A stretch of DNA of 28,222 nt from a virus, in IMG/VR virus record IMGVR_UViG_3300031278_000008, positions 1 to 28,222 of that record. One strand, written 5' to 3'. The notes under the pieces are model-generated. The model did not search any database and was not told where the DNA came from. It worked only from the letters and a program-made list of their open reading frames with translations. The stretch's first letter is position 1, and every line of letters begins with the position of its first letter. Both the position numbers and the translations under genes were made by a program. Positions 5,231 through 28,222 of the stretch are shown one piece after another.

Positions 5231-6873
5231 TATGTTAGCTTGTTTCTTCTATCGTTAGCTCGATTATAAGTAATAAGTATATGATCATCCATAAGTTTTG
5301 TTGATAATGTACCGCCCATCTTCCCGTACATCTCAGAAGGTACTATCATTTCCCGTTTACCGGGATTGTCTCCTATCATTGCCAATGTCGGCCCTCGAAC
5401 CTCTCCCCCTTGTGCGAATGAAGGAATCATCTGACCGAGTAATTGTGCTATCATGTTCAACGGTGGTGGTAGAAACATGCTTAGTGATCCAAATATACCT
5501 CCAAGCGCACCTTTCATATCTCCTTCTTGAAGTGAACGGAAAGCATTAGCCAGCCCGTATGCTACCTGATTAAGTTTACTACCGGCGGCTTCACCAAGAA
5601 CATTACCAGCATTCTCAGCGGCTTTTTTTAGTGCCGGTTCAACATTATCGGTTAAATCTTGTGATATAACACCTGACTTACCAGATATCGAAGGTAATGT
5701 TTCAGCTTTCCTTTTGCCACCAGACATGCCTCCCGATATACCTTGTTCAATAGCCTTGCCTGCTTCTTCACCTTGTTTTCTTAGAGCATCAATATCTATC
5801 AGCTCTATCTCACCTTTTGCTGCCCGTGCGATACTATCCTTCCACGCCTTACCTAAATCAGTTGCTGTTATCTTTATCTTTTGTAAGATTACCTGATTAG
5901 CGTCGTTTAATGTAGTTTCAAGCCCGGCAAGAAAACCTTTCTTCCAATTTTTCGGATTAAAAACATAACCAACTGTTTTTCCAAGTGCCGCGAAACCATT
6001 AATTAAAAATTGAATAACAATCTTACCAGTACTAAAAAGTGATTTTAAGATAAGGGCAATAAATTCTACGTTAATTCGGAAAAATTGTGACTTATTGTAT
6101 AGCCTTATCCATTCGTTAGTATATTCTGCTATTTTAATTTTTCCTTTTGAGAATAATTTAACAGCTTTTTTAGCACCCCGGATTATTACATCGAATACCT
6201 TTGTCACTATAGGGGCGAGTCCTTCGCCTATTCCCTCTTTAATGTCACTCCATTGGTTTTTTAATATTTGTAAAGGCCCTGTACCTACTTTTGCCGCTGC
6301 CTTTGCCTGTCCTTCAAATGCTTTACTTAATCCGTTGACTAATGATTCAAGCCTCTCGGTACTTCCTACTGCTCCCTCAACCTGAATACCATATCTTGAT
6401 AATGCATTTGTTGATGACCCTAATGTCTTAGCCACAAGATCGGCAGCAACATTTAATTGCATTCCTTTAGCGGTAGCCAAATCCTGAACAAGGGGGATAA
6501 TTTTTTTAATATGTTTTTCTTCTTTTACAAAAGCAGCGATCAATGCCTGTGCCTGTATCGTTTCCTCATCGCCAAACAAAGTAACCTTTTGTAATTCTTG
6601 AGCCTGCCTAATTAAATTCTGTTGTGCTGATTTACGCCCTTTCAACGCAACAAGCAAGCTCTGTTCAGCCTTAGCCTGTACGTCATATAGCTTCATCGTC
6701 TCGGATGCAAACTTGGTTATCTTCTGCACAGCAAAAGCAGCAGCAATGATACCACCGATCTTCTTAACCGACTTACCAAAATTATTAATATGACGCTGAC
6801 TATCCTTAAGTCCTTTTTTAAGCTTTTTATTGTCAGCGTTAATATTAACCCTTATGTCTTTATCTCGTGCCAT
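5230..6873 (-). CDS. Tail tape measure protein
   Basis: The protein has 547 aa. Lys-rich helical sequence opens it, followed by a PhageMin_Tail-type region at about residues 50-220. That region contains TMKLYDVQAKAEQSLLVAL, a TLFGDEETIQAQAL segment, an LSRYGIQVEG segment and GPLQILKNQWSDIKEGIG. Hydrophobic stretches follow near residues 265-300, typical of tape measures that enter the membrane. Ala/Gly-rich helices come next, and the C-terminus contains FAQGGEVRGPTLAMIGDNPG, a common tape measure ending. At about 1.5 A per residue, the length suggests a tail near 80 nm. It lies between the chaperone frames and the tail hub, with one-base overlaps on both sides. Confidence 0.85.
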   Translation of the reverse strand: MARDKDIRVNINADNKKLKKGLKDSQRHINNFGKSVKKIGGIIAAAFAVQKITKFASETMKLYDVQAKAEQSLLVALKGRKSAQQNLIRQAQELQKVTLFGDEETIQAQALIAAFVKEEKHIKKIIPLVQDLATAKGMQLNVAADLVAKTLGSSTNALSRYGIQVEGAVGSTERLESLVNGLSKAFEGQAKAAAKVGTGPLQILKNQWSDIKEGIGEGLAPIVTKVFDVIIRGAKKAVKLFSKGKIKIAEYTNEWIRLYNKSQFFRINVEFIALILKSLFSTGKIVIQFLINGFAALGKTVGYVFNPKNWKKGFLAGLETTLNDANQVILQKIKITATDLGKAWKDSIARAAKGEIELIDIDALRKQGEEAGKAIEQGISGGMSGGKRKAETLPSISGKSGVISQDLTDNVEPALKKAAENAGNVLGEAAGSKLNQVAYGLANAFRSLQEGDMKGALGGIFGSLSMFLPPPLNMIAQLLGQMIPSFAQGGEVRGPTLAMIGDNPGKREMIVPSEMYGKMGGTLSTKLMDDHILITYNRANDRRNKLT

Positions 6874-11093: not shown

Positions 11094-12385
11094 GATCCTG
11101 TGCTTAACAATGATTTTACATTGGCAAATGTACCGGTCGCGAAAGCATAGGTATTCACATTCTTAATAACCAAACAGCCCCTCCACGTTGCCGTGAAAGT
11201 CACCTGATCATAGATAGGATCGTTACTATTCTGATCCCACAGCTGAATATTAATACCCCTGCGGGTGTACAATTTCCCCTGGTTGAAATCACCGGTTAGG
11301 AATGATCCTGCATCAATCCTTTGTGATGTCAACACGGGAACACCGAAAATCCTAATCATACCATTCGTGTCAATAGTGACACCTCGCATCTTCAAAGCGC
11401 TCTCGTTCGTTGATTCTTTAAGTGACAGTACGTTAAACAGATCAACCGGGTTAATAATGTGAGCTGTCGGGACAAACCCGGTAGCTTTACTGTTCGATGT
11501 ATTTCCCAGCTGAACTTTTAACGCTGCTACTCTTAGCGCATCAATAATGTTAGCACCTGTCACAGCATCAACCCCGGAAGGTAATGCTGACAAGGTTTTA
11601 GCTGCATTATAAGAACCACCACCAAGCAATCCATACATGACGTTATTCATTCCATCACCGTCAAAAAGATCGGTATCAACCTTGTGGGGGATGTTGTATT
11701 GAAGGACGTCCATAACCTCAGACCGAATAAAATCCGTGTCTTCAAGCTTTTCCCTTGCTACCACAATATAATCCGATATTTTTTCAACTGGAATCTTATA
11801 AGACGTCCATTCAATATCAGAATCCCCGAATACAGCACCCTCGGCAGTGTTTTTCGTACCGGTGGTTTCAGCTGTACGTTCAACCCAATCAACATAATCA
11901 GATTTCCCAACTACTCCCTGGCGAAACATATTCATTAACATCACAGGCCGCCTCGGATCAATACCAATCAGCGGGTCACGCTGTGAAGGAATGATCTTTG
12001 AGTTAGCCTCGGTAAATGAATTCGAGGAAGTGATTGTATCTGCCTTCAAATCAAACTGTCCCATCTTGGATTTCTCAGTCTTGAAATTATTAAAGCTGTC
12101 GGACTCAAAGAAAGCATCCCACTGGTCATCAACACTCAGTGATTTATCTTTCTTAGCGACCGCATCAGCGATCTTGCCCTCCAATTCATCAAGATGCTCC
12201 TGCATCTTCTCGGCATATTCTTTATCTGACTTATGCTCATCTGCAAGTCTGGATAAATCCTTACGGAAATCATCCTGCATCTTGACAAGCTTGTCAGCAT
12301 CTGCCTTTTTTTCTGTTAGCTCATTAAGATCATCGAATCTTTTGTTCAGATCATCAGTGAGCTGTTTTACTTCGTCTTTCGTCAT
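11090..12385 (-). CDS. HK97-fold major capsid protein with scaffolding delta domain
   Basis: The protein has 431 aa. Residues 1-100 are a coiled coil rich in Lys, Asp and Glu (the delta or scaffolding domain). From about residue 110 the HK97 fold begins (PLIGIDPRRPVML..GVVGKSDYVDWVER), with AEGAVFGDSDIEWTSYKI, IVVAREKLEDTDFI and a C-terminal IFGVPVLTSQRID. The junction near residues 105-125 is the likely protease cut site. It forms the icosahedral shell. It follows the prohead protease by ATGA, the canonical order. Confidence 0.92.
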   Translation of the reverse strand: MTKDEVKQLTDDLNKRFDDLNELTEKKADADKLVKMQDDFRKDLSRLADEHKSDKEYAEKMQEHLDELEGKIADAVAKKDKSLSVDDQWDAFFESDSFNNFKTEKSKMGQFDLKADTITSSNSFTEANSKIIPSQRDPLIGIDPRRPVMLMNMFRQGVVGKSDYVDWVERTAETTGTKNTAEGAVFGDSDIEWTSYKIPVEKISDYIVVAREKLEDTDFIRSEVMDVLQYNIPHKVDTDLFDGDGMNNVMYGLLGGGSYNAAKTLSALPSGVDAVTGANIIDALRVAALKVQLGNTSNSKATGFVPTAHIINPVDLFNVLSLKESTNESALKMRGVTIDTNGMIRIFGVPVLTSQRIDAGSFLTGDFNQGKLYTRRGINIQLWDQNSNDPIYDQVTFTATWRGCLVIKNVNTYAFATGTFANVKSLLSTGS

Positions 12386-18088: not shown

Positions 18089-18557
18089 TTTTAATCGGTT
18101 TTAAAAGATTATTATTTGATAGTATTTCATCATCGCAGATATCAAAAGGAATATGATAATTGAATATCTTACGCCACTTTGTACATTGATCACCATAGTG
18201 CCCTATCCGGTGTTCAAATTGATGTTTTATGATAAATTCTATTTGCCATTTTCTTTGGTTGAGAAAATTACAAATGCATACATGATTAAAAGCAGGAGGT
18301 TCTTTGTTTATATGCCAAATTTGGGCATGAGGGTATAATGTTTTTATCGCCTCCTCTCTGAATGGTTCTGATATCAAACATACCGGTTTAACAAAGAAAT
18401 TAATCACTGGTTTCATATTAGCAATATTCCCGATACCCATGTCCATGAAAATTACAGGACTTGGTAAGTTAATATATTGTAGTATACTTCCGCAATATAA
18501 GTTAAACCAAGCTTTTAATAAAATACGATCCCTGTTTATTTCCTCAAAGACGTTCAT
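18015..18557 (-). CDS. GT9-like glycosyltransferase, N-terminal half
   Basis: This frame encodes 180 aa. VIFMDMGIGNIANMKPVINF and VKPVCLISEPFREEAIKTLYP, followed by HRIGHYGD, resemble the first Rossmann domain of GT9 enzymes (a GxGDxxxxxPxxxxL-like loop and an RIG motif). The last roughly 25 residues (NYDGSDRDKRYLPDVDTMER) are read in the frame that overlaps the C-terminal half and look out of place. The gene overlaps the radical SAM gene by 14 bp, so both are probably translated together. The acceptor is unknown. Confidence 0.6.
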   Translation of the reverse strand: MNVFEEINRDRILLKAWFNLYCGSILQYINLPSPVIFMDMGIGNIANMKPVINFFVKPVCLISEPFREEAIKTLYPHAQIWHINKEPPAFNHVCICNFLNQRKWQIEFIIKHQFEHRIGHYGDQCTKWRKIFNYHIPFDICDDEILSNNNLLKPIKNENYDGSDRDKRYLPDVDTMERAY

Positions 18558-19140
18558 AAGGTAATTTTTGGCTTATTAATTCATAACAATTAATATTAAT
18601 CCTGAGGTTTGGAGATATTCTCAGACATTTAATATCATAATTATCGTTGTTTTGAATCGGTTCCATCCTTTTTACAACAGAATAAGGTAATATTTTATAA
18701 TCAATCTCATCCACATTAACCTGATATTTATTTTTTAAAAGATTATAATTTCGTTCAAATAATTCTCTTTTAACTGCATGATGATACGTTGATTGTATCT
18801 TTACCCTGTGGCATCTTGGAACTTGCAATAACACGTCTGGTTTAGACAAGTTAGTGAAAATATTAACAAAATACCCCTGTGAAAGTAACCATTTCACTAT
18901 TCTTACAAAATCATTATGCATCGTTGGTTCTCCTCCTGATACATATACTTCCTTAATTTTACAAGGAAAACGCTTAAAAAATCTTACCCATGATAAAAAA
19001 CCAACCTCCTTAAATACAGGCATTTTTCCTTCGACATATTTTTGTAAACAATAAGGACAATTATAATTACATCTCATTGTTAGACTAATCTGTATCACTA
19101 CTCCTTTTTTTAGTTTCTTTAGTTTCCAATATAATTTCAT
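18544..19140 (-). CDS. Short radical SAM protein
   Basis: The 198-aa protein has the radical SAM cluster motif CNYNCPYC (Cys24, Cys28, Cys31) and the SAM-binding GGEP at residues 69-72 (YVSGGEPTMH). A partial TIM-barrel follows (VNIFTNLSKP, KIQSTYHH). There is no SPASM domain, but Cys residues occur near the C-terminus (IKCLRISP..INCYE). It is short for the family yet appears complete. It lies between a two-helix membrane protein and the split GT9 gene with overlaps on both sides, so it probably acts in the same pathway. Candidate roles are modification of a nucleotide, sugar or peptide; the substrate cannot be told from sequence. Confidence 0.8.
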   Translation of the reverse strand: MKLYWKLKKLKKGVVIQISLTMRCNYNCPYCLQKYVEGKMPVFKEVGFLSWVRFFKRFPCKIKEVYVSGGEPTMHNDFVRIVKWLLSQGYFVNIFTNLSKPDVLLQVPRCHRVKIQSTYHHAVKRELFERNYNLLKNKYQVNVDEIDYKILPYSVVKRMEPIQNNDNYDIKCLRISPNLRININCYELISQKLPYERL

Positions 19141-26100: not shown

Positions 26101-26195
26101 TTATTTTTAATGTTTATTGATATATATATTGTTATGTACTGGCGCATTTTCAGGCACGTAGCATGCTACGAAGCAAGGTAATTTTATTATTTTTT
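26101..26195 (+). repeat. Diverged third copy of the island repeat (copy A, same orientation as right arm)
   Basis: Three blocks match the right arm (27572-27699) in the same order and spacing. They are a TTTTTnnTGTTTAT-like start near 26104-26118, GTTATGTAC-nn-GCGCA at 26131-26146 (27601-27616 in the right arm), and a 16-base AT block at 26180-26195 (27649-27664). The middle is replaced by sequence with a 14-bp palindrome. Offsets between the last two blocks are 49 and 48 bases. Confidence 0.55.
26157..26170. repeat. 14-bp perfect palindrome CGTAGCATGCTACG
   Basis: A perfect inverted repeat with no loop lies inside the diverged repeat copy and upstream of the plus-strand promoter. It could be an operator or recombination site; no protein is assigned. 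Confidence 0.5.
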
Positions 26196-26237
26196 AGGGT
26201 GGGGTTTTCTTTGTCTTATTTAGAATTGAAATAAATA

Positions 26238-26292
26238 ACACAAATGTGTGAAAATAATTGTTAAAATACTTGCATATCTCACACAAATGCGT
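26238..26292 (+). promoter_or_regulatory. Pair of operator-like palindromes around the island promoter
   Basis: ACACA-AA-TGTGT (26238-26249) is a perfect 12-bp palindrome with a two-base centre. ACACA-AA-TGCGT (26281-26292) differs by one base. Their spacing of 43 bases is about four helical turns, and the second site lies between the -33 and -7 boxes, where a repressor would block transcription. Confidence 0.5.
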
Positions 26293-26300
26293 TATCTTTA
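26270..26300 (+). promoter_or_regulatory. Bacteroidota-type promoter of the plus-strand island
   Basis: TTG at 26270-26272, a 20-base spacer and TATCTTTA at 26293-26300 (TAnnTTTG with one mismatch). It lies 26 bases before ATG 26327 and is oriented to drive the plus-strand genes. The remaining divergent region 26043-26326 holds the diverged repeat copy and no gene. Confidence 0.55.
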
Positions 26301-26326
26301 CTTCATAATAATTAATAATTAATATT

Positions 26327-26686
26327 ATGAAAACAGTAGAATTTACAAGCAAAAAAGGAACAAAACTGCAAGGAACAGTTAAGAAAATTTCTGACAATAC
26401 ATTATTAACTGTAACAGTTGATGGAATTACCTCCGATTTTTTCGGCATTCCTAATGGATTGAAAACTTTTGATTATAATGGTCAAAAAGCTGTTATTGAA
26501 CTTTCAGATGAAGAAAAAAACAAAGTATATTCTGCAATGTGGCCGGAAAATACCGTAATTGAAGTTTTGAAAGAATGGACTACTGTAGAATGTGTAATTT
26601 CTGGTGAAGACATGGTTAAATATCAGACAGTTAAAATGTTAGACGGAAGTGTAAAAACTATAGAAAAATACAGGAGGGAATTATAA
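26327..26686 (+). CDS. Hypothetical beta-rich protein of the plus-strand island (119 aa)
   Basis: The protein starts MKTVEFTSKKGTKLQGTVKK and is built of short strands (TLLTVTVDGITSDFFGIP, NGQKAVIELSDEEKN), ending KTIEKYRREL. It is Lys/Thr/Val rich with no Cys pairs or signal peptide. The next gene begins within its stop (TAATG). It is on the opposite strand to nearly all others and has its own promoter, so it probably arrived with the island. No family is recognised. Confidence 0.65.
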   Translation: MKTVEFTSKKGTKLQGTVKKISDNTLLTVTVDGITSDFFGIPNGLKTFDYNGQKAVIELSDEEKNKVYSAMWPENTVIEVLKEWTTVECVISGEDMVKYQTVKMLDGSVKTIEKYRREL

Positions 26687-26973
26687 TGAAAACATATGAA
26701 TTTTGCGAAAATTGTGGTAAAAAAACTCATCATGTAGATAAAATATGCCGAAACTGTGGTTTTGATTCAGATTACATTATTAATTGGGGGGCATTAAGCA
26801 GATTGTTAACAGGCTCACGCCAAACTGTGAGAAGAAATTCAATACCTAAAATTCACCAGGCTGTTGTAAATGATTTGCTAAAAGCTATGGATAAGGTTAT
26901 TTCTAAACGGCTTGATAAAGCCGAAGCGGGTGGGCAAAAAAATAATAAAATTTCTCCCACTGAACTCGATTAA
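26686..26973 (+). CDS. Zinc-ribbon protein whose C-terminus is encoded by the repeat arm
   Basis: The protein has 95 aa. Residues 7-24 carry CENC..CRNC (Cys7, Cys10, Cys21, Cys24), a four-Cys zinc ribbon. The middle contains GALSRLLTGSRQTVRRNSIP and a basic amphipathic helix LLKAMDKVISKRLDK. An AGGAGGG Shine-Dalgarno site lies seven bases before ATG, which is rare in this window. From about residue 73 the codons lie in the left inverted-repeat arm (26903 onward), and the same last residues (EAGGQKNNKISPTELD) are encoded on the minus strand by the right arm. The native C-terminus was therefore probably replaced or extended by the element. Confidence 0.65.
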   Translation: MKTYEFCENCGKKTHHVDKICRNCGFDSDYIINWGALSRLLTGSRQTVRRNSIPKIHQAVVNDLLKAMDKVISKRLDKAEAGGQKNNKISPTELD

Positions 26974-27029
26974 ATGTAATTGGTTGCGCTTGTACATAAC
27001 GGACAGCGGTATGAACAGTAAAAAGTAAA
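26903..27029 (+). repeat. Left arm of the long inverted repeat (copy B)
   Basis: These 127 bases are the reverse complement of 27572-27699. The core 26921-27012 (92 bases) is identical. Two transitions occur on the inner side, and changes on the outer side lie in a hairpin (26908-26923: CGGCTT, GATA, AAGCCG). The arm holds the last codons of the zinc-ribbon gene and ends six bases before the methyltransferase ATG. Confidence 0.9.
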
Positions 27030-27035
27030 ATAGGG

Positions 27036-27560
27036 ATGGAAATAACTCGAAAATGGGCAATGCCCTCAAGACATACATTTAAGATTGAACCAATACGCAA
27101 ACTTGTATATAAATATGTGAGCGATGGCATAGGGTGGATTGACCCTTTCTGTGGGGAAAACAGCCCTGCTGAAATAACAAATGATATTAACCCAAACAAA
27201 CCCGCTAAATTTCATTTACATGCAGAAGATTTTGTTAAAGGGCTGTTTGGGGAATATAATGGAATATTATTTGATCCGCCATATAGTACCAGGCAGACAA
27301 AAGAATGCTATGAGAGTGCTGGGATTGAGTTTCAACAAAAAGACTCACAAGATGCAGTACATTACGGTAAAGTAAAAGACCTGGTAAAAGATAAAATACT
27401 CCCGGGTGGGATTGCTATAAGTTGCGGGTGGAATAGTTCTGGATTTGGGAAAAAACGAGGCTTTGAATTGATAGAAATATTGTTAGTTAATCATGGAGGA
27501 AATGGACACCACGATACAATTATTACAGTTGAAAGAAAAGTGCAAAGTTCGCTGTTTTAG
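27036..27560 (+). CDS. DPPY-type DNA methyltransferase inside the inverted repeat
   Basis: The protein has 174 aa. The N-terminal RKWAMPSRHTFKIEPI, IDPFCG (residues 35-40, the AdoMet-loop position), EITNDINP and catalytic DPPYST (residues 80-85) are typical of small phage adenine- or cytosine-amino methyltransferases with a WAMPxxxTFxIxPI start. The later CGWNSSGFGKKRGFELIEIL and HDTIITVE are the closing strands. It is the only gene in the spacer: the ATG lies 6 bases after the left arm and the stop 12 bases before the right arm. A Shine-Dalgarno site is absent; the A-rich inner edge of the left arm forms the leader. It may protect phage DNA from host restriction; the target sequence is unknown. 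Confidence 0.85.
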   Translation: MEITRKWAMPSRHTFKIEPIRKLVYKYVSDGIGWIDPFCGENSPAEITNDINPNKPAKFHLHAEDFVKGLFGEYNGILFDPPYSTRQTKECYESAGIEFQQKDSQDAVHYGKVKDLVKDKILPGGIAISCGWNSSGFGKKRGFELIEILLVNHGGNGHHDTIITVERKVQSSLF

Positions 27561-27571
27561 TGCGCGTTGGC

Positions 27572-27699
27572 TTTACTTTTTATTGTTTATACCGCTGTCC
27601 GTTATGTACAAGCGCAACCAATTACATTTAATCGAGTTCAGTGGGAGAAATTTTATTATTTTTTTGCCCACCCGCTTCGGTTTTTTCAAAACCGTTTAG
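27572..27699 (-). repeat. Right arm of the long inverted repeat (copy C)
   Basis: The arm is 128 bases, the reverse complement of 26903-27029. The outer end carries the hairpin CGGTTTT, TTC, AAAACCG (27678-27694), where the left arm has CGGCTT/AAGCCG. The changed pair is compensatory. It ends seven bases before the stop of the minus-strand gene 27707-27970. Confidence 0.9.
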
Positions 27700-27706
27700 G
27701 TCAGTT

Positions 27707-27970
27707 TTAAAGCCCATCCCATCGCTTTGCTTGGGTGGGTAGTTTATAATACCTATCACTCGGATCATCACCTGTTTGTCTGCAAAAATCAACTTCATTT
27801 AAAACACAATCCCAGCAAATCAACGTACCTTCTTTTGTTTCAACCATATCTTCTATAAGATACCAATTTCCACATTCAGCGCACTTGATTAATTCCGAGG
27901 TCAGATTATCATTCCACGGTGCATTAATACTGTCATCTGTTACTCCTGGGGGTAGATTATAATTTGCCAT
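27707..27970 (-). CDS. Zinc-ribbon protein in the early operon (87 aa)
   Basis: The chosen start is ATG 27970 (MANYNLPPGVTDDSINAPWN); ATG 27976 would add MT. After the DDSINAPWND segment, common at the start of small Bacteroidota phage proteins, come CAEC and CWDC (two CxxC pairs about 22 residues apart) forming a zinc ribbon. An acidic tail with DDPSDRYYKLP closes it. The start overlaps the preceding gene by 14 bases. The right arm of the plus-strand island lies seven bases past its stop. DNA or protein binding is likely; the partner is unknown. Confidence 0.65.
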   Translation of the reverse strand: MANYNLPPGVTDDSINAPWNDNLTSELIKCAECGNWYLIEDMVETKEGTLICWDCVLNEVDFCRQTGDDPSDRYYKLPTQAKRWDGL

Positions 27971-28103
27971 TGTCATATTCTTTTTTGATTAGATACCTGA
28001 TTAATGTTGTCATGTTGCTAAGGTTTAATTTCTCTTGCAACTTATCCGCCATTTTTATTGTCTGGCGGTCGAATTTGAAGTTTTTTCTTATCTTGTTTTT
28101 CAT
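27957..28103 (-). CDS. Ribbon-helix-helix-like small protein (48 aa)
   Basis: ATG 28103 (MKNKIRKNFKFDRQTIKMAD) is preferred because the longer frame from 28202 overlaps a better coding frame. NFKFDRQTIKMADKLQEKLN followed by SNMTTLIRYLIKKEY is a strand plus two helices with the N-x-T-x-L-I-R pattern of ribbon-helix-helix repressors. It overlaps the next gene by 14 bases. A regulator of the early operon is plausible. Confidence 0.6.
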   Translation of the reverse strand: MKNKIRKNFKFDRQTIKMADKLQEKLNLSNMTTLIRYLIKKEYDNGKL

Positions 28104-28122
28104 GAATTTTATGTTTTTATGT

Positions 28123-28222
28123 TTAAACTTTTTCTTTATAAATAACTTTAGCTTTGGTTCCTGAGTGTAATCTCCATGTTTCTCCATCAAATGAAGGAAC
28201 AATTCCCTGTTTCCATAGATCA
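28123..28222 (-). CDS. Early-operon protein, C-terminal end only (cut by window edge)
   Basis: The last 32 residues of a gene that starts outside the window are visible: LWKQGIVPSFDGETWRLHSG, then TKAKVIYKEKV and TAA. The frame has better composition than the overlapping one starting at 28202. This looks like a beta-rich C-terminus; no family is named. Confidence 0.5.
   Translation of the reverse strand, partial: DLWKQGIVPSFDGETWRLHSGTKAKVIYKEKV

Follow-up and report, generated by a model that had tools for sequence, protein, structure and literature searches.

Two tail-to-tail cassette ends, probably of integron type, enclose a methyltransferase gene in a tailed-phage record

Integron cassettes are usually regarded as promoterless genes. 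Phage morons are accessory units that carry their own promoter and are not defined by common recombination-type ends. Clusters of attC sites lacking an integrase (CALINs) have been reported in phages (Qi et al. 2023, PMC9892861); Polaribacter phage P12002L contains methyltransferase (MTase) genes together with oppositely directed attC sites, one of which is active with IntI1 (PMC9892861).

The window analysed here is the whole of an IMG/VR record of 28,222 bp, derived from a tailed phage with genes for a major head protein, portal, large terminase, tape measure and exonuclease; a terminase-family search with PF03354 was uninformative. Near its right end, two inverted arms flank an MTase gene. 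Like the P12002L CALIN, this is a Bacteroidota phage locus in which an MTase lies among attC-type sites pointing in opposite directions, the cluster has no reported integrase, and cassette starts are complementary to their own ends. In contrast to P12002L, the window has long conserved ends, an extra inner inverted block and its own double-operator promoter with a regulator, and its MTase lies between two inverted ends rather than in a closed cassette of its own. With integron cassettes (attC, R''-L''-L'-R') the units share start/end complementarity, a palindromic site after the gene and, in the related contig G011, an array in one direction, but most R boxes depart from GTTRRRY, promoters and regulators lie inside the cassettes, and no IntI was found. 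With phage morons they share the placement of an accessory unit with its own promoter between phage genes. The layout recurs in an isolate, Nonlabens phage P12024L, whose locus P12024L_53/_52 (JQ823123) comprises a cargo gene and a regulator homologue preceded by two palindromic operators 42 bp apart, and ends carrying a 17-bp inverted block. The end and operator sequences there have diverged from those of the window, and P12024L has neither the MTase nor the arm duplication; the match in layout points to Bacteroidota hosts.

We consider it likely that the arms are two right-hand ends of an integron-type (attC-like) phage cassette, standing tail to tail with the MTase in the gap, and that these ends mediate the gain and shuffling of genes.

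The inverted repeat and the cassette to its left

The only long inverted repeat of the window, far beyond chance, joins 26903-27030 to 27572-27699 with 95% identity over 128 columns and one 1-bp indel, so that the 127/128-bp repeat described in the original prediction is real. The spacing between the arms is ~542 bp. Six bases (27030-27035) separate the left arm from the MTase start, as had been predicted, and the distance from the MTase stop to the right arm, given earlier as 12 bases, is 11. The features of the locus are as follows.

26131..26145, plus strand: left (start) core GTTATGTACTGGCGC, complementary to the right core of the cassette; same start in relatives G006-G010
26178..26195, plus strand: inner left block GTAATTTTATTATTTTTT, which repeats the inner right block in inverted form
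26236..26294, plus strand: two palindromic operator-like sites, TAACACAAATGTGTGA at 26236 and TCACACAAATGCGTTA at 26279; conserved in relatives L015, L016 and L021
26327..26686, plus strand: cassette cargo gene, 119 aa, function unassigned
26686..26973, plus strand: small putative regulator with a zinc-ribbon-like start and a INWGELSRLLSGSRQTVRR-type domain, phrog_34662
26903..27030, plus strand: left arm, the right-hand (3') end of the cassette
27036..27560, plus strand: DNA methyltransferase gene, 174 aa; phrog_11619, DPPY motif, Rossmann MTase fold model
27572..27699, minus strand: right arm, repeating the right-hand cassette end in inverse orientation; its hairpin allele CGGTTTTGAAAAAACCG is non-coding and also present in L015
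27707..27976, minus strand: convergent small zinc-ribbon-like gene, its stop 7 bp outside the right arm
27957..28202, minus strand: convergent small gene upstream of 27976-27707; its frame continues past the end of the record

In the unit 26131-27001, whose left end is 26131-26195 and whose right end is 26903-27001, the left arm represents the native right end. The arm consists, in this order, of the hairpin CGGCTTGATAAAGCCG, an A-rich block, the regulator stop codon, the core GCGCTTGTACATAAC (26986-27000) and the 5' half of an attC-like palindrome, and the final ~22 codons of the putative regulator fall inside it. A gene tail is indeed present on both sides of the MTase, as originally noted; the claim that both arms encode the same peptide end holds for the left arm, where the ORF 26686-26973 ends in EAGGQKNNKISPTELD followed by the stop, and fails for the right arm, where only a spurious frame exists. 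The right arm is read on the minus strand, and two cassette right ends therefore stand tail to tail; a left end belonging to the right arm, if any, would fall past the record end at 28222.

The two operator-like sites are exactly 43 bp apart, and the second abuts a -7-like TATCTTTA. The small regulator probably represses its cassette promoter through these operators. The regulators match HTH models weakly, a structure model of the one in the window scores poorly (pLDDT 56), and no relatives of the regulator were found in GTDB genomes.

The MTase matches phrog_11619 at E=1e-34, its DPPY is invariant across 11 relatives, and its structure model (pLDDT 81) retrieves Rossmann methyltransferases with Foldseek, including M.TaqI and CamA; both motifs and fold are those of the class. 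The gene starts 62 bases downstream of the regulator stop and is probably transcribed from the cassette promoter at ~26240-26310 by read-through of the left arm, with a probable role in modifying phage DNA against host restriction. The arms are absent from 12 MTase loci, which lie in ordinary phage contexts, and an association of the arms with this MTase family was rejected on that ground. Elsewhere in the window, between packaging and early genes, a radical SAM protein gene with a weak QueE-like match occupies 18544-19140 (minus).

Arm-type ends and operator pairs in other phages

Relatives of the arm were sought through the neighbouring gene (26686-26973), an arm-core 18-mer and a 5' core pattern. 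The arm core occurs outside the window in 8 IMG/VR records (7 distinct sequences), which are uncultured phage contigs; at the DNA level no real match was obtained in isolated phages or plasmids, nor did an arm 23-mer match any GTDB genome. The arm is thus not confined to the window and adjoins different genes in other phages, an outcome that the original prediction had named as support for a cassette. In each relative, arm-type sequence of 60-70 bp closes small genes, which belong to at least three unrelated types: the INWGELSR type, the ELKKELGLSNKEIAEFF type and a third.

The most informative relative, L015 (IMGVR 3300025000_000176), comes from a 44.8-kb phage contig and carries arm sequence after an orthologue of 26686-26973, with a second copy in direct orientation after a different gene (PAPS-reductase-like, judged by eye). 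The peptide EKNNKITPTELD is out of frame in this second copy and preceded by a stop in G007; because the arm DNA has been kept twice out of reading frame, it is conserved as DNA, the peptide being a by-product. The arm element folds well (z -4.1), its base-pair covariation is weak and Rfam returned no match, and we rejected its identification as a known RNA.

Most arm-type copies are preceded, 0.6-1.2 kb upstream, by an inverted 18-19-bp block, as seen when the element is compared with the relative contigs. In five relatives, the left end at this distance from the arm core reads GTTATGTAyctGGCGC plus GTAATTTTATTATTTTTTT, and the common left end can be written as CGT-GTTATGTAyctGGCGCATTAT, then ~30 bp, then GTAATTTTATTATTTTTTT.

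Pairs of operator-like sites spaced 42-43 bp apart were the best-scoring pairs in 11 of the 12 units examined, the exception being L023; among the weaker cases, the match is poor in G010 and the first site degenerate in G013. The operator sequence tracks the regulator type encoded by the gene at the operon end: TAACACAAWTGTGTGA accompanies the INWGELSR type, TAAGTATATACTTA the ELKKELG type, and other palindromes the variants. Such pairs precede small-gene operons at L015 5429, at L016 346 and 1604, in G006-G009 and at L069 1636. At L023 5001-6476, in another phage contig, a regulator homologue and a gene resembling a tyrosine integrase face each other with their 3' ends.

A sister of L015, 99.9% identical to it, is L021 (3300024999_000259). 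Comparison of L021 2564-2700 with L015 6049-7738 reveals a ~1.55 kb deletion starting within the cassette end, a diverged allele just ahead of the deletion and a 106-bp tandem duplication upstream. The loss in L021 from within the cassette end onward indicates that the slot varies.

Geometry of the cassette ends

In the window, the start at 26131-26145 (GTTATGTACTGGCGC) is complementary to the end at 26986-27000 (GCGCTTGTACATAAC) of the same cassette. Looser scans for palindromes and pairs were noisy, and the stricter test of start/end pairs was decisive: in G011 it returned 15 pairs on one strand and 1 on the other, with at most 3 in shuffles. This contig (IMGVR_UViG_3300031578_000046), from a tailed phage, holds ~12 integron-like cassettes in one direction at 12474-6493 (minus), the arm-type unit being the last in the array; no tyrosine recombinase was found in the contig.

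In L015, a closed palindrome, ACATAACGTTGAGTATAAACCG-TCGTTTTAATG-CGGTTTATACTGTGTTAGGC, comes after the arm-type end; its R' box is GTTAGGC, giving a candidate attC-like site at 6238-6300. The next cassette has matching ends, starting with GTTAGGCTTCG and ending with GAAGCCTAAC. The MTase genes of P12002L show the same start/end geometry, with an attC that shares its build and the TCGTTTTAATG spacer with the L015 site. Folding of the best closed palindromes is only moderate (z about -2.4 to -2.7), and one does not fold. Most core boxes deviate from GTTRRRY, e.g. GTTATGT in the window unit, against the canonical GTTAGGC of the next L015 cassette. At the window locus itself, only the 5' attC-like half adjoins 27001, with its complement on the far side of the MTase, within the right arm.

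Within the 28,222-bp record no transposase was recognised and no Phage_integrase match to a tyrosine recombinase or intI was obtained, which agrees with the original prediction of a unit devoid of either. Tyrosine recombinases in G008, G009 and G013 are Xer-like and fall below the integron-integrase cut-off, so that they were rejected as integron integrases. The one in G009 (11378-12184, minus) adjoins a short run of attC-like cassettes and is a candidate for a recombinase acting in trans.

Mosaic arms, competing origins and the proposed mechanism

In their outer hairpins, left arm and L015 copy 1 are identical (19/19), as are right arm and L015 copy 2 (19/19), whereas the two arms agree with each other at only 13/19 positions. 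In the core the relation is reversed, with 59/59 identities between the arms and only 49-51/59 between each arm and L015. As judged from these comparisons, the arm flanks are two old alleles, and the core was homogenised later, which indicates that ends of this type have exchanged sequence.

A rival reading places the MTase on an invertible segment, with homologous or site-specific recombination between the arms flipping the gene between the plus-strand and the convergent minus-strand operons and thereby switching its expression. The 128-bp arms with their long identical core, the convergent operons on either side and the homogenisation itself fit such a switch. We nevertheless regard it as unlikely: no inverted or empty form was seen among the records found, which include no near-identical second record, the record has no tyrosine recombinase, the two ends in L015 are direct repeats around other genes, and homogenisation can arise by gene conversion without inversion.

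A fold-back inverted duplication, in which replication snapped back at the attC-like hairpin to produce an inverted second cassette end with the MTase caught in the loop, would account for the arms meeting at the L''/L' halves of the attC-like palindrome and for a left arm that belongs natively with the regulator gene, as it does in L015. This origin is improbable given that the right arm has, in its outer hairpin, the other L015 allele and not a copy of the left one, so that it is at least partly older than a local copy.

A non-autonomous, MITE-like transposon that captured the MTase, with the arms as its terminal inverted repeats, was part of the original prediction. Its general idea of a cassette without a recombinase of its own is retained here, and the tight boxing of the gene by inverted repeats would suit transposon ends; these are nevertheless highly improbable, since neither the outer nor the inner borders show a target-site duplication, the flanks of the two arms differ, relatives of the MTase occupy ordinary phage contexts that lack arms, and the arm sequence, where it recurs, marks one end of a directional cassette whose left end is different. 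Finally, an assembly artefact in the form of a chimeric palindrome might be suspected in a metagenome-derived record with the locus near the contig end, yet it is very unlikely because hairpin and inner positions are not the same in the two arms and the right-arm allele is present independently in L015.

Under the favoured interpretation, with the arms as cassette right-hand ends, the left arm would close the complete cassette 26131-27001, comprising a promoter under operator control together with the cargo and small-regulator genes, and the inverted right arm would stand behind the convergent operon to its right. The MTase would fill the place of the attC-like 3' halves, each arm retaining the 5' half only. 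The cassette promoter would drive both the cargo gene and the MTase under control of the two operators, probably through the cassette's own regulator. The ends would act as DNA sites at which a trans-acting recombinase, which we infer to be integron-like or Xer-like, brings about the gain, loss and shuffling of accessory genes, and they could double as homology for exchange between ends.

What is new here is a cassette family with built-in operators and a regulator. Tentatively, it may represent a family of self-regulated mobile cassettes in Bacteroidota phages, defined by attC-like ends with an inner inverted block and operators spaced 42-43 bp apart, in which each cassette encodes a repressor of its own operators and can be shuffled without cross-talk, while paired inverted ends trap genes, e.g. 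an anti-restriction MTase, and exchange sequence. The operator/regulator pairs yield directly testable predictions. If this picture is correct, a portable, self-limiting expression unit would be circulating among Bacteroidota phages and would offer them a route to collect anti-restriction genes.
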